A DNA stretch of 64,000 bases, taken from the NCBI GenBank assembly GCA_027604705.1, contig JADHYV010000019.1:1-64000 (forward strand). The letters are read 5' to 3'. Position numbers and translations under genes: made by a program. Under the pieces are notes generated by a model. The model had not been told where the DNA came from. It saw only the letters and a list, made by a program, of their open reading frames with translations, and made no database searches. Below, in pieces: positions 1 to 8,697 of this stretch. Source of the DNA: Allomyces arbusculus (Eukaryota > Blastocladiomycota > Blastocladiomycetes > Blastocladiales > Blastocladiaceae). Each line of letters starts with the position of its first letter. Position 1 is the first letter of the stretch.

Positions 1-350
1 AACCTAAAAAACCTAAAAAACCTAAAACCTAAACCTAACCTAAAAAACCTAAAACCTAAACCTAAAAACCTAAAAACCTAAAAACCTAAAAAAACCTAAA
101 AACCTAAAAAAACCTAACCTAAAAACCAAAAAAACCTAACCTAAAAAAACCTAAAACCTAAAAAAACCTAAAACCTAAAACCTAACCTAAAAACCTAAAA
201 ACCTAAAAACCTAAAAAACCTAAAAAAACCTAAAAAACCTAAAAAACCTAAAAAACCTAAAACCTAACCTAAAACCTAAAAACCTAAACCTAAAAAAACC
301 TAAAAAACCTAAACCTAAAAATAAACTAAAAAAACCTAAAAAACCTAAAC
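1..350. repeat. Telomeric repeat array, variable-T type (C-rich strand)
   Basis: The first 350 bases are almost only CCT followed by a run of A. The run varies from two A (CCTAA) to seven (CCTAAAAAAA), so the G-strand reads T(2-7)AGG. C-rich sequence at the 5' left edge is the orientation expected of a left chromosome end. The inner edge degenerates (for example ataaactaaaa near 320-330, and aaccaaaaaaacc near 125), as expected where old repeats are no longer renewed. The unit is not TTAGGG and has only two G. I cannot tell whether the array is complete or cut by assembly. Confidence 0.9.
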
Positions 351-356
351 AGCCTG

Positions 357-880
357 GTCACGCTAAACCAAGGAGGTTGGGGGGGCCGTGCAAAGTCATC
401 TGAGGGGCCATTGCTTGGCATTGGCGTGGTTTTGTCTGGGACATCCTATAACTGCACGTCATTTGGGGGGTCATCGACCAACATTTGCTATACGAACTTC
501 ATCATTCCCACTCAGATGCATTCGAACATCATTGTCGAGGGGCGGTCCCTGCCATTGTCTTGCAGAGTCACGCTGTTGCACGCAGTTGATGGCCGTGTGC
601 AAGACATTTGTCGCCGTGCAGCATGACCGCGAGATTTACAGCATGACCTCGGCAAGTCATTTGTGGCGTAAGCATCCCCAAGCGTTTGCAAACTTACGGC
701 CCAGTCACGCTAAACCAAGGAGGTTTGGGGGGCCGTGCGAAGTCATCCAATGGGCCATTGCGTGGTTTTGTCTGGGACATGCTATAACTGCACGTCATTT
801 GGGGGGTCGTCGACCAACATTTGCCACCAAACTTCATGGTTCCCACTCAGATGCATTCGAACATCATCGTCAAGGGGCGG
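357..880. repeat. Degenerate direct tandem duplication, period about 347 bp
   Basis: The segment 357-545 returns at 704-880 with roughly 85-90 percent identity by eye. Both copies contain gtcacgctaaaccaaggagg, then gtggttttgtctgggacat, then ataactgcacgtcatttggg, and end at aggggcgg. An indel of about 12 bp separates them, so the offset is 347 at the left edge and 335 at the right. The G-rich runs (ggttggggggg) recur in both. This looks like a remnant of a subtelomeric satellite rather than two genes. Confidence 0.85.
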
Positions 881-1196
881 TTTGCGCCAAAACTTCATGG
901 CCCTTCCAGGAAACGTTCATTAGCGTTAATTTACCACTTTGCATAAAGCCGGGTCCCTCCCTGTTGCTGTTCGGGGTGGCCAATCGACACTTGCTATTGA
1001 TATCAATCAGGGTAACGAACGTGGCTGGCGACACCCGTGGGAATTATCGATAACCCCCGGGTAGATTACGATTAGGTTATGGTGGAGTGTTACCCCAAAC
1101 GGCAACCACCTGCGGGGGCACCTGGCAACTGTCTTCACCCGGGGTAAGCAATTGGACCCCCAAGTGACCCCATACCCTAACTGTCCCCCTGCTATC

Positions 1197-1531: not shown

Positions 1532-4500
1532 CTACACAGCACGGGCCTTGAGCCGCTTTGACTCGGATTCGAGCCGGTTGCCACGCTCAATCGAGTCTTG
1601 CAGCTCCCGCTCAAGCCGCCGCTTGGCCAATTGCAGGTTGGCCTCGTTGGCCTCCATCTCGTCAAGCTGCTGCTTGAGCTTCTTGCACTTGGCCTCGAGC
1701 TTTTCTGTCTCCTCGTCGGCACGCTGCTTGATGCGGTCACGCTCTGTGAGCTGCGCCTGCGCGTCCTTGAGCGATCGCTCGACGCGGCGGAGATTACGGT
1801 TCGCCTCCTCGCGATCGCGCATCTCCTTGTCGAGCGCGGCAGCAAGTTCGTCGACGCGCGCTTGCGAGCGCGCTGTGGCTTTGGCACCTACATCGCCCAA
1901 CGCAGCGGCCTCGAGCTCCATGACGCGCAGCGTCATTTCCTTGACCTGCTTTTCCAGGGCCAGACGCGCGCGATCAGCGTCTGACGCCAAGTCGCGGTGC
2001 CGCGCGACCTCGGCCTGTGCCTGCTGCAACGCCAGCTCCGACTTGGACAGCTTGTCCTGCGCCAGCTGCGCGCGCTCGTCGGACTCCTCGGCCGTCAGAC
2101 GCAGGTGCAAGGCCTCCTGCTCCAAGGACGCGAGCGCGTTCTGAGCCGTCGACTTGGCCTTGGCGCACTCGACATACTGCTCCGAGAGCTCCTCGATCCG
2201 GGCATCGAGTGTCTTCTTGGTCTTTTCCAAGACCGCACGCTGCGCGTCCACCTCGAGCAACTGCGCGCGCACTTCGCGAATCTGGGCAATGTGCTTGGTG
2301 ATCTGATTCTGGTAGTCGTCGTTGGCCGACAAGGCCTCAGCGTACTGGCGCGAAATGTCGGCGGCCTTGGCCTCGAGCCGCTCCTTTTCCTTGAACAGCG
2401 ACAGCTTGGCGCGCTGCTCCTCCTCGACCTGCGTCGACAGCTGCACGTTGTCGGCCTCGAGCGTGTTGAGGTCCTCCTTGAGCCGCGCAGCGTTGCGCCG
2501 CTCCATGTCGAGCTCGCTCGCCAAGTCCTTGATCTGCGCCTGGTACTTGCGCTTGAACTGCTCGAGCTGCCCTTCGCGCTCGTCCATTTCACGCTTGTGC
2601 CGGTCGCGCTCCTCTTCAATCTCGTGCGCGAGCTTGCGGCGCGTCATTTGCGCGTCGGCGAGATCGGCCGCGTCCTCTTCCGCGCGCTCCGAGAGCTCGG
2701 CCAGTTGCGTCTCGACCGACCGCAGCTTGTCCTCGGCCTGTTTTTTGTCCTTGCTTAGCTCGGCCAAGCTCTCGTCGAGCTCCTTGAGCTGCAGCTTAAG
2801 ACTGCCCTCGCTCTTTTCGGCCTTGAGCCGCGCCATTTCGCTGGCCTCGAGCCGACCAATGGCCGTGTCGGCGCGGTTCTTGAACAACGCCGACGACTCG
2901 GTGAGCTCAGCCGACTTGGCCACTTCAATCTCGAGCTTGGTCTGCAGGTCCTTGTTCTCCTGCGCGAGCTTGCGGCGCTGAGCAGCCTCCTCGTTGCGTG
3001 CCGTGATTTCTTGCTCGAGCCGCTCCTTGAGCTGTTCAATCTCCGACTGCTGCATGCGCTTTTGCTTTTCGAGCGCCTCCATGTCGCGTTGCTTGTGCTC
3101 GAGCTCCTGCTGCCCGAGACGCTGCGACGCCAGCAGAGCGCGGCGCGACTCTTCGAGCTTTTCAATCTTCTCCTCGAGCTCGCTCGTGACCTTACCGCGA
3201 ATTGCCTCAACATCAGAGAGACCTTCGCGCCGCTGCGCCTCGAGGTGCTGGCGCAGCTCCTGCTCCTGCTCGAGCTCCTCGCGCAAACGAACCAAGTCCT
3301 TCTCGAGCTTCTTCTTGGCCTCGAGCAGTTGCACCTTGGACCCGCCCTCGCCGCCCTCGAGCTCGTTCGTAAGCTCCTCGATGCGCTTCTCCGCCTTTTT
3401 GCGCTCGCGGTCCGAGGCCTCGAGCGCCTGCTCGAGCCGTTCTATTTCGGCCTGCAGCGTGCTCGACTTCTTTTCGTGGCGCTGGGCCATTTCCTCGAAG
3501 TTGCGGCGCGCGCGCTCCTCGGCCTCGAGCTGCTGTTGCACCTCGCGCAACTGTTGTTCGGCCTTCTTCTTGAGCTTTTCCAAATCGGTCTTAGATTTGG
3601 CCGACGAGTCCTCCTTGGACGACAGCTCCTTGATCTTCTCCTCGAGCTTGACCTTGACCTTTTGCAGCTCGTTGCGTGCGGCCTGCTCGTCGTCGAGCTG
3701 CATGCCGAGCGAATTGATTTCGCGCTGGTAGAGCTTGCGCGTCTCCTCAAACACGGCCTCCTTGTTGACGAGCTCCTGCTCCGACTTGGCGCGGTACTCC
3801 GTGAACTGCTCGTCGGTGCGCCGCCGCTGTTCCTCGGCCTTTTTGCGCGCGGCTTCTTCCTCCTCGAGCTGCTGCGTCAGTTCGGCCAGCTGCGCCTCGA
3901 GCTTCTTCTTGGACCGCTCGAGCTCATGCACGTTCTTACCGCCGTCACCAATCTCGTTGATCAGCGTCTTGAGTTCCGACTCGAGGTCGTTCTTGCTGCG
4001 CTGCAGTGAGAGGAATGCCTGCTGCTTATCCTCGACCTGCATCTGCATCGTGTCGAGGTTGCCCTGCAGCGTGCGGCACTTGGACTCGGCCAGTTCGCGC
4101 GCGCGGCGCTCGGCATCGACGACCGTGTTGAGCGCGGCCAAGTCGGACTCGGTCTGCTTTTGCAGCTTCTCGGCCTGGCGCGCGACAGCGTGCTCACGCT
4201 CGAGTTCCATGCGCAAGTCCTCGACCTCGGTCGTCAGCCGCACCTTGGCCTTTTCCAAGTTGGTCACGACTTGCTCTTGCGCCGCCAGCTTGGCACGCAA
4301 ATCGGCAACCTCGCGCTCGAGCTTCTTGCGGCTCTCTTCGAGCTCGGCACCGCGCTCTGTCGCGTCCTTGGCGTACTTGTCCTTGAGCGCCTCGAGCTCC
4401 TGCTGCTTGGCCAACAGCCGGCGCTGCACATCTTCGACTTGAATCTCTTGCGCGTCAAACTTGGACTGCCAATCGGCCACCTCGGCCTGCAACTTCTTGC

Positions 4501-7500
4501 GCTGCGCCTCGGCCGACGTTCTCTTGCGCACCTCGTCCTCGAGCTCCTCGCGCACGCCCTCGAGCTGCTTGAGCAGTTGCCCGCGCTCCTTGTCGATGCG
4601 ATCGGCCTTGGACTCGCTCTCGTCGATGCGCGTCGCCGTCGCCGCCACTTGCTTTTCGAGACCCTCCTTGGCCACCCGAAGCTCGGCAATCCGGTCCTCG
4701 AGCTCGACGGTCTTGGCCCGCGTCGCAGACAAGTCGGCATCGAGCTGACGCTTGACCTTGTCAATTTTGTTACGCGCCTCGAGCGACTCGTCGAGGTCGT
4801 TTTGCAAATCGACCGTCTTCTTTTCGAGTGACTGCTTTTGCTTGGCCAGCGCGTCGCGCTCGGCCATGTAGCCGTCCGACTCGCGGCGCAGCGCATCCAT
4901 GGACGCAGCGTGCTTGCGCTTGGCCTCCTCGAGCTCTTGCTGGACGGCCTGCAGCTGCGCGCGCAGGTCCGACAATTCCGTCTCGCGCAATCGCCGCAGG
5001 TCCGACTGTTTGGTCTCCTGGTCGTTCTTGTCCTCGACGACATGCCGCAGGTCCTCAAACTCGGTCTCGAGCTTGCGCCGCGCCTTTTCGCTGCGCTCCT
5101 TGTCGGATCGCTCCTGCTCGACTTGGCCCTCGAGCGCCGCGACCTTGGCCACGAGCTCGCGCCGCAGCCGGTCGAGCTGCTCAGCCTGCGCGGCCTCGGA
5201 CCGCACACTGGCCGTGAGCGTCTCAATCTCCGACTCGCGCTTCTTGACAGCGGCCTCGAGCTCGGACTTGGTGCGCTGCGCCTCGCCGAGCGACGTGCGC
5301 AAATTGGCCAGCTCCGACTCGAGTGTGTTCTTCTTGGACGTAAGCGCCTGCAAGTCGAGTTCCTGCTTGGTCGACCGCTCGTCCAGGTCCTGCACAGTGC
5401 TCTCGAGCTTCTTCTTTTGCTTGAGCAACTCGGCCTCGCGCTCCGACCCGGTCGACACTTGCCGCTCAAAGTCGGCGACCGTCTGCGCCAAACTCTTGCG
5501 CTCGGCCTCGACCTTGGCCATGGCCGCCGTCGACGCGGCCAGCTCGGTCTCGAGCTGCTTCATGCGCGCGTCCTTGATGACACGCTCCTTTTCGAGATGC
5601 GCAAGAACTTGCTTCTCCTCGGCCAGCTGCTCCGACGCCTCCTTGACTTTCGCCTCGAGCTGCAACTTCTGCACCGTCATGTCCTCGTGCGACTTTTCGA
5701 GCTCCGAGTACTCCTTGTTGAAAACATCGAGCTCGTCCTGCAACGCGGCGAGACGCTGCTGCGCGCGGGCGAGAATTTCTGCCTGGTCGGCATTCGTGCG
5801 CAGCGTCGACTGGTACAAGTCCTCGGTCTGGCGCTTTTCAGCTTCGAGCGCGGCGCGCGCGGCCTCGAGCCGGTCGCGCTCGGCCTGCTGGTGCGCAATC
5901 TGGTCCTTGAGTTCGCCGAGCGCCTCGTCCTTGCGACGCAGTTCGTCATCAACGCGGCCCACCTGCAACAACGGCTTGACCTTAGCGTAGAGCTTCCACC
6001 ACGGCCACTCGCGCAGCTGCACGTAAATGCGCGCATTGCGCTGCACAATGCGGATCGCCTTGACCTGGTCGAGCCGCTTGCGGTGCATTTTGCGTGCCAA
6101 GAACCCACGGCACTGCGCCTGGAAGCCCGTCAAAATCTTGGACAGCTTGGCGTCGCGAATCTCCTCGAGCTCGGCGAGCACGCCGGCACGGAAAAACACT
6201 TTCGACGACCCGATCCGGTACTGATTCTGGTCCATGGCCAAGTGTTCGAGAATCGTCTGCGTCGCCTTGCGCCCGTCCATGAACCCGCGCGGGATCAGGC
6301 CCGGGCAAATGATCTCGTACCGCTGCCGGAATTCGGCAAAGACGAGCCGGTTCGGGAACCCGGCACGGCAAATGCGAATACCTTCGAGCACGCCGTTGCA
6401 CCGCAGTTGGTCGAGCACGAGGGGAACGTGCAGCTTTCCGGGCCGCTTCTCCTCGTTCGGAATAATGCACCGCACGAAATGCGGCGTCGTGTCGTAGAGC
6501 GTCGCCATGAGCGAGACGAGCTGCTCCTTGTGCTTTTGCGCGACCGTGCGGAACGCGCCCTTCTTGACCATCATGGCCTTGCCCGCGACGGCGCCGGCGC
6601 CGTTGGTTGCCAAACCCGTGCCGGACTCGCCGTCGCCAAGGTAGTCGGCAAAGAGACTGGCGAGGTACTTGTCGGACGAGTTGGCAATCAACCGCGTCAC
6701 GTTCTCGTTGAGCGGGTCCTTGTTCTTGTCGAGCCAGCCCGACGTCTTGTACTCGACCTTGCCCGCGTAATGGTGGATGATGAACCCTTCCTGGAACCGC
6801 GGCGTCTCGTACTTGGCCGACTTGCCCTTCCAGAGCGTGTGTAGCTTGTCGGTGAACGTCTTGTCAGTGGCCTTGGGCATGACGCACTCTTCGTCGAGGC
6901 ATGACAGGATGCCGATCGGGTTGGCTTTCTCAATCAAGTCGATGGTCGGCTGCAAGTCGAGCCCGAAATCGATAAACTTCCACTCGATGCCCTCCTTGCG
7001 GTACTCTTCCTGCTCGAGAATGAACATGTGGTGGTTGAAGAACTGCTGCAGCCGCTCGTTCGTGTAGTTGATGCACAGCTGCTCAAACGAGTTGACGTCG
7101 AAGATCTCGAACCCGGCAATATCGAGCACGCCAATGAATTTGGACCGCGCCGCCGTCGGCTGGTCGAGCGCGGCATTGATACGGTCGACCAATCTACCAA
7201 ACATGCGCTCGTAGAGCGACCGCGCCAACGCCTCGAGCGAGTTGGCGACCTGGTCGGGACTGCGCGCCTGCGTGACCCAGTCGCGGCCGGCCTTGATGCG
7301 CGGCTTGAGCAGACCCTTGGTGAAGTCCGGCACGGGCACGCCGAGCACATGGCACACCTTCTCAACGGGCAGCGGGTCCGTGAGCTGCGCCTGGTTCTCG
7401 CGGTCCCCCGTGGTCGTGATGTTTCCGAGCAAGAGCACGGCGGCGACGGCACGGAATAAGTCGACCTGCTCGTCCTTGGAAAAGCCCATGATTGACATGG

Positions 7501-8697
7501 CCTCCTGCAGCTGCGCGAAATCGGCCACGTCGTCGACGCCCTCAATATTCTTGTTGGAGCTCTTGATGAAATTGTAGTCGTTGAGCCCAGCATCGAGCAG
7601 TAACTGCTTCTTCAAGTCGGGCGATGCGCCCTTGACGAGCTGGTAGAAAATGTGGTAGCTGCGCTCCTTAGCCGTCTGGTGAGTGACGCGTGATTTTTCG
7701 AGCAGGTACCGCTCAATGTTGGCGCCGGCAATCTGGCCCGAAGCGCTGAACTCGATGCGCACAAACTTGCCAAACCGCGACGAGTTGTTATTGCGAATCG
7801 TCTGCGCGTTACCAAACGACTCGAGGATTGGGTTGGCCTGCAGGATTTGCTGCTCGAGCGTGCCCATGGCCTGGTTGGCCGACTTTTCCCCGGCAATGTA
7901 CGCCAGGTACTGGATCACCTTTTTCGTGTTCTCGGTCTTGCCGGCGCCCGACTCGCCACTATGTTTTTTGGGAGGACAAGATGCGTCGAGGTGAGTTTTT
8001 TTACCGTGGAGTATGGTGGAGAAGGAGAATACAAAATGACGCGTACGTGATCAAAATCGACTGGCTCTCGCGATCCTGGAGCAGGGCGCGGTAGGCTGCG
8101 TCGGTGACCGCGTAGACGTGCGGCGGCATTTCGGCGCGCTTCTTTTGCTGGTACGACAAGATGACGTTTTCCGAGTAGATGGGCAGCCGGTGGTAGGGGT
8201 TGACGGCGACGAGGAAGAGGCCCGAGTAGGTGTAGATCAAGTTCGAAAAATAGCGTTCGCGCAAGTTGTGCACGACTGAGGCCTCGTTGAGGTAGGCGAG
8301 GTCGGCCATGTCCTCGGCCTTGTCGAACTTGGGCGGGTTCATCTTTTGCGTGTCGTTGATGTTGACGACGCATTCCTATTGATTGTTGATTCACGTTAGT
8401 TGTGCGACCCGGAAGGAGGACGCGTAAAATAGGGGCTGAAGAAAGAACCTTGTCGTCGCGAATCTGCACTGTGACCTGGTCAGTGCCCGCGGCGGGTTCC
8501 TGAACAACCCAGGCGGCCTTGTAGCCGTCGGTCGCGTGCGGGACCCACAGCCACTTCTTTTCGTTGAAGGCAGCGGCCGCGATCGCGTCGTTGGCCATGG
8601 TGCGACGCTGCAGCGCAAGCAGATCAGCAGACGGCGCGGTACCGGCGGCCTGGGCCGCGGCGGGCGCGGCGCCATTGACGGGAGCACCGGGAGCCAT
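1532..8697 (-). CDS. Conventional (class II) myosin heavy chain
   Basis: Actin-based motor of contractile filaments, expected in cytokinesis and cortical tension. Three exons (8697-8449, 8375-8047, 7958-1532; introns of 73 and 88 nt) close in phase to give 2,334 residues. An N-terminal SH3-like segment (KKWLWVPH, about residue 46) precedes the motor. The P-loop GESGAGKT is at 194-201, directly after the second intron, which splits the Thr codon before it. Switch [10 protein letters not shown] is near 249 and switch [10 protein letters not shown] near 472. An SH1-type helix containing [10 protein letters not shown] follows. Two IQ-like segments (for example [12 protein letters not shown]) at about 800-855 form the light-chain neck. 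From about 860 to the end is one uninterrupted heptad coiled coil of about 1,475 residues, with no obvious non-helical tailpiece. That rod is longer than typical animal myosin II rods (about 1,100). The start has ATG in good context and a Pro/Ala-rich leader. The stop lies only 1.2 kb from telomeric repeat. Confidence 0.97.

Follow-up and report, generated by a model that had tools for sequence, protein, structure and literature searches.

Telomeres of Allomyces arbusculus are built from a repeat in which the number of Ts varies from unit to unit

One contig of Allomyces arbusculus opens with a tandem repeat in which AGG is preceded by a changing number of Ts. The question that this array raises is whether it is a telomere and, if so, how a telomere of unfixed unit length is made. 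The window analysed here is the whole 64-kb stretch that starts with the array. Position 1 of the window is base 1 of contig C19, and thus the array is terminal. Counted on the C strand as CCTA(n), it includes 5 units of n = 2, 5 of n = 3, 7 of n = 4, 10 of n = 5, 9 of n = 6, and 6 of n = 7 (Table 1), and its mean n (4.78) is the largest among the 21 ends described below. When both strands of the window were searched, no second run of two or more CCTA(n) units was found. In addition, the autocorrelation of unit length along the array had no sustained peak (lag 5, −0.44). A higher-order repeat of 79-89 bp proposed by Tandem Repeats Finder was rejected, since the unit order shared between ends is no greater than in shuffles. 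The long open frame nearest to the telomere, about 1.2 kb away, encodes a myosin heavy chain (Myosin_head, E = 1.4e-236; Myosin_tail_1, E = 1e-94), and a myosin with both domains agrees with an amorphean source.

Table 1. Positions of the features discussed in the text (window coordinates unless a contig is named).
Feature	Position	Strand	Remarks
Terminal telomeric array	1..349	G strand T(2-7)AGG minus; C strand CCTA(2-7) plus	42 units
Variant unit CCAAAAAAA	126..134	+	Interrupts the array; A of AGG missing on the G strand
Degenerate proximal stretch TAAACTAAAAAAA	322..334	+	Interrupts the array
Telomere-subtelomere junction	347..350	+	Last unit n = 3, then CA; without GG microhomology
Subtelomeric DNA, two tandem copies about 340 bp apart	349..881	+	Self match; pairs 349-423/696-770, 417-488/753-824, 495-546/830-881
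Myosin heavy chain open frame	1535-8050	−	
TERT, RNA-binding domain	C8:21372-21893		
Candidate telobox Myb protein	C4:823201		
Internal template-like site L035	G000:C16:393890-393899	−	
Internal template-like site L036	C48:119112-119121	−	
U6-like promoter L063	G000:C12:294926-294960	+	CCACAACCAAG; TATATG 24 nt after CCACAACC

To estimate how widely the repeat occurs, the genome (25,903,786 bases in 197 contigs) was searched with array patterns of two lengths. The 24-base pattern matched 23 places, none of them farther than about 0.4 kb from where a contig ends, and its reversed control matched none. The 12-base pattern matched 115 places (6 for the control), and the 100 listed places were likewise all close to contig ends (about 0.5 kb or less). 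Among the matches listed, at least 21 contig ends, including that of the window, carry an array. All 20 further ends that we fetched were as heterogeneous as the first (21/21 with the window), and the orientation was the same at all 21, the G strand of a short G-rich tandem repeat running out to the end. The arrays were read as assembly consensus sequence, 188-502 bp each. Contig C29 (284,793 bp) bears arrays at its two ends and probably represents an entire chromosome. The first-pass annotation of this DNA had called the array a telomeric repeat with a varying T tract and had proposed looking for a homogeneous repeat at other ends; the call holds for C19 and for the 20 other ends, and no homogeneous end appeared among them. 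The heterogeneous telomere is real and genome-wide.

The pooled arrays gave 902 units that are followed by CC (other token rules give 883, or 930 plus 21 junction units): 186 of n = 2, 133 of n = 3, 207 of n = 4, 227 of n = 5, 97 of n = 6, 44 of n = 7, 6 of n = 8, and 2 of n = 9. The commonest unit, n = 5, makes up only 227/902 (25.2%), so that no unit dominates as one does in a homogeneous TTAGG- or TTTAGGG-like telomere. A unit of n = 1 between two other units was absent from the 21 arrays; a single CCTA followed by G occurs at the L015 junction. Under the 930-unit rule, n = 3 (135) is rarer than both n = 2 (205, P = 1.7e-4) and n = 4 (210, P = 6e-5), and this dip means that the distribution of unit lengths is not unimodal. 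The dip points to two steps that add up to n. Judged by eye, the counts do not follow a strict scheme in which even increments are added to 2 or 3, because the ratios differ (2:3 is 205:135, 4:5 is 210:230, and 6:7 is 98:44). The distribution of n did not differ significantly among the 21 ends (P = 0.085).

The first-pass annotation also held that AGG is invariant. This is nearly so: the 21 arrays comprise 1,022 tokens, a few run-in subtelomeric ones among them, and 953 of these are CCT, with C alone in 12 cases and T alone in 11. However, strict invariance fails, since 24 tokens are CT (one G) and 2 are CCCT (three Gs).

The order of the units is informative about their origin. The longest unit string common to any two of the 21 ends was 7, and 20 shuffles gave 6-9. 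In having irregular units whose order is not common between ends, the arrays resemble the heterogeneous telomeres of yeast and Paramecium. Because the order common to ends is no greater than in shuffles, the arrays appear to have been synthesised independently, each unit by unit, and we infer that they were not spread by copying between ends. Along the arrays, the order is close to random but not wholly memoryless: unit-length autocorrelation at lags 2-6 was not distinguishable from that in shuffles, whereas that at lag 1 was weakly positive over the 21 ends, at 0.127 against 0.031 (SD 0.032), a value as extreme as this being reached by a fraction of 0.002 among 1,000 shuffles, and the unit-to-unit transition table gave P = 0.018. 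The absence of an order common to ends and the nearly memoryless series agree with the first reading that the variation arises at synthesis.

Recombination or array expansion, as in telomerase-independent maintenance, might instead have scrambled older repeats. The proximal halves of the arrays are indeed more degenerate, with 9.5% of 516 tokens other than CCT (a figure that counts run-in subtelomeric tokens too) versus 2.7% of 485 in the distal halves of the 21 ends. But the distribution of n is the same in distal and proximal halves (no significant difference, P = 0.56), the 21 ends examined share no more order than shuffles do, and a TERT gene is present. We consider this explanation highly improbable.

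The junctions between telomere and subtelomere have a first unit of their own kind. The junction unit was picked by a mechanical rule as the canonical unit nearest to the subtelomere; the rule needs n ≥ 2, so that a shorter first unit would be passed over, as happened at L015. The junction unit had n ≤ 3 in 16 of the 21 ends, against a background fraction of 0.366 (P = 3e-4), and units 2-8 from the junction did not differ from background. In addition, the subtelomere started with CC at 10/21 junctions (0.095 of 7,923 control positions; P = 7.5e-6) and with CCT at 5/21 (control, 0.018; P = 3.4e-5). A CC or CCT start means that the capped end had (A)GG, as expected if (A)GG ends prime telomerase. 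When the junctions were split in this way, a division chosen after the data had been looked at, the junction unit ranged from n = 2 to n = 7 at the 10 CC junctions and was n = 2 or 3 at all 11 ends without GG microhomology (1.6e-5 if drawn from background). At some junctions the CC may simply belong to another, decayed unit. Where subtelomeres are related, the caps sit at differing points, L011 inside that of L009, L023 inside those of L024 and L026, and L017 inside that of L028, which we read as telomerase healing of broken ends. L023, L024, L025, and L026 form a subtelomeric repeat family with 81-96% identity in pieces, again with the telomere capping at different points.

Could the variation be an artefact of sequencing or assembly in A homopolymers? 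Homopolymers are prone to sequencing error, and the evidence here is consensus sequence. Nevertheless, miscounts of one or two bases would not be expected to give a range of 2-9 with no n = 1 between units, a shortage of n = 3, and, across 21 ends, a first unit set apart by its position. Thus, we hold an artefact to be very unlikely.

On balance, we think that these ends are made by a telomerase that does not fix the number of Ts, probably because the T tract re-aligns in varying ways on the template of the enzyme. Every cycle would copy AGG faithfully, and the growing end would then re-pair its T tract (or the terminal GG plus Ts) with the A tract of the RNA template, where several registers would be possible. 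The number n would be the Ts remaining from the last cycle plus those added after re-alignment, and the floor of n = 2 would reflect two Ts that are always templated. Non-telomeric primers would start at a default template position with 2-3 As left to copy. The registers, and with them the shape of the template, are inferred.

The first-pass annotation had favoured slippage of telomerase on an A-rich template. In its pure form, the primer would be aligned by GG on CCU-A(4-5)-CC, and TERT would slip along the A tract. Part of that reading stands, since variation is found in the T tract and scarcely at all in the G tract, and it arises as the repeats are synthesised; the highest counts at n = 4 and 5 and the enrichment of GG at junctions suit it as well. 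However, stuttering on one long A tract of a single template length should give a unimodal n, yet n = 3 dips. Furthermore, the first unit should match the rest, yet it is short in 16/21 ends, although it could also come out short if the primer were set within the A tract. Short junction units together with the dip therefore favour re-alignment over slippage on one long A tract, and pure slippage is in our opinion unlikely.

Two or more telomerase RNA genes with A tracts of different lengths, used at random, could also produce a bimodal distribution of n. Yet six or more lengths would need several such genes, or slippage too, and no telomerase RNA was found in pattern and promoter searches of the genome; we regard this explanation as quite improbable. 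The register model itself is without template support from these searches. The patterns AACCTAAAAK and AACCTAAAAMK matched 18 places, 6 of them telomeric, and none of the 12 internal AACCTAAAA sites was convincing. The reversed control patterns matched 40 and 51 places, so that the template motif is not enriched.

Several of the internal sites were set aside, by eye, for their surroundings. Those on C13 and C18 lie in apparent coding frames, that on C73 lies in an apparent 5′ leader, and that on C16 (L035) overlaps the apparent stop codon of an opposite-strand gene. Over 180 nt around AACCTAAAAT, L035 folds better than shuffles (z = −3.1); a strong hairpin immediately precedes the site, and it alone stood out among six folded candidates (z = −3.1, −2.2, and −1.1). 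Given the upstream hairpin, our dismissal of this site may be wrong. The best internal site, on C48 (L036), has TATAAA 88 nt upstream. It is flanked by a PX/Vps5 gene and by a convergent open frame to which Pfam assigns no family, and these two are, as judged by eye, about 0.7 kb apart. Its folding z was +0.52, while three other windows gave −0.11 to +1.19; the two Rfam matches at the site are far under their gathering scores, and neither is a telomerase RNA. TATA-plus-CCTAAA patterns were rarer in the genome than their controls (5 versus 35 and 3 versus 23). That the C48 site is the telomerase RNA template seems doubtful to us.

Promoters of small nuclear RNAs offered another route to the telomerase RNA. 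Matches to U6 and U2, together with one to U1 that falls below its gathering score, show the genome to be eukaryotic. Both U6 copies (among L039, L040, and L050) have CCACAACCAAA about 60 bases upstream, before TATATA, and the U1 match has CCACAACCCCA; these are likely to be the proximal sequence element of snRNA promoters in this genome. For U2 (L041-L044), TATAAAA is found at −38/−39 in three of the four copies. A search with CACAACC-N(23-28)-TATA returned 15 places (control, 25), of which three are the two U6 genes, and no convincing CCUAA template was found near the 12 others. Meanwhile, CCUAAACC on C15 (L064) was rejected: it would predict n = 3, which is the dip, and it sits in possible coding frames. 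One U6-like promoter (L063; Table 1) lies about 0.3 kb from a tRNA-Ser gene and may drive an unknown Pol III RNA.

The protein side of telomerase was recovered. A TERT gene, as expected of telomerase-maintained telomeres, is present on C8, where three Telomerase_RBD stretches score above the curated cut-off; each crosses one stop, which we take to be intronic. Telomerase_RBD lies above the cut-off in two separate open frames, and RVT_1 is found in two further frames, below its cut-off. TERT chains are the PDB matches of two frames, with weak E-values (0.13 and 0.004), and a third frame had no TERT match in PDB. In NCBIfam, the TERT frames gave only weak matches to group II-type reverse transcriptases.

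The first-pass annotation had suggested looking for a Myb/TRF-like protein that binds the repeat. Ten Myb matches were found in the genome, and the weakest, on C4 (22.4 bits against a Pfam cut-off of 24.4 in one search and 26.4 bits in another), is the relevant one. This protein aligns through QMKLKDKARNVR, a motif that we take to be the telobox, to PDB 8x6d (Protein TBF1, E = 3e-11) and 6k5u (trf1, presumably that of fission yeast, E = 7e-7), and these alignments place a telobox third helix in its Myb domain. Its PDB table also contains pentatricopeptide-repeat chains, matched via repeated weak stretches. Like Tbf1 and Trf1, the protein has a telobox; Pfam gave no match to a TRFH domain in its open frame or in the upstream frame (exons unjoined). 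A protein of Tbf1/Trf1 type is thus a candidate for the binder. We put forward tentatively that the T tract is not templated as one piece and is built in two steps, with a fixed 2-3 Ts copied before AGG and a random number from re-pairing of the previous T tract with the template, and that an end-binding protein recognizes the irregularly spaced AGG cores alone.

Heterogeneous telomeres are found in Paramecium and Dictyostelium as well as in yeast, and their variation is mostly in the G tract or in the choice between G and T. The units are irregular in all of them; here, in contrast, two Gs are nearly fixed and T varies. The Saccharomyces telomere is given as T(G)2-3(TG)1-6 (PMC10100673), and stalling, stuttering, and misincorporation are proposed mechanisms for the heterogeneous telomeres of budding and fission yeast (PMC8211666). 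The TTAGG type (Bombyx type) and TTTTAGG of the alga Klebsormidium are each named as one unit (PMC9498494); both have a T tract, A, and two Gs as here, but in A. arbusculus TTAGG and TTTTAGG are only two of eight units. In Chlamydomonas reinhardtii, 89.7% of 709 repeats are the canonical TTTTAGGG, with TTTAGGG at 5.2% and TTTTTAGGG at 1.8% (PMC6549138); rare T-tract variants thus occur there too, around a canonical unit that A. arbusculus does not have. Mantamonas has TTAGGG ends (PMC10492846). Among the titles and abstracts within reach of our search, which most subscription papers were beyond, we found none that describes such T-variable telomeres. The ends of A. arbusculus belong to the known heterogeneous telomeres, with the variation located in T.

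In telomerases with a fixed repeat, the repeat length is set by a template boundary and by a short alignment region. A nearly exact G tract beside a varying T tract separates these two controls, and the genome of A. arbusculus offers about 900 natural readouts of a telomerase with a varying T tract. Telomere finders that rely on a single k-mer can miss T-variable ends, and TelFinder by its own account cannot identify variable repeats (PMC10100673). Furthermore, the arrays raise the question of how a telobox protein holds a lattice that lacks fixed spacing.
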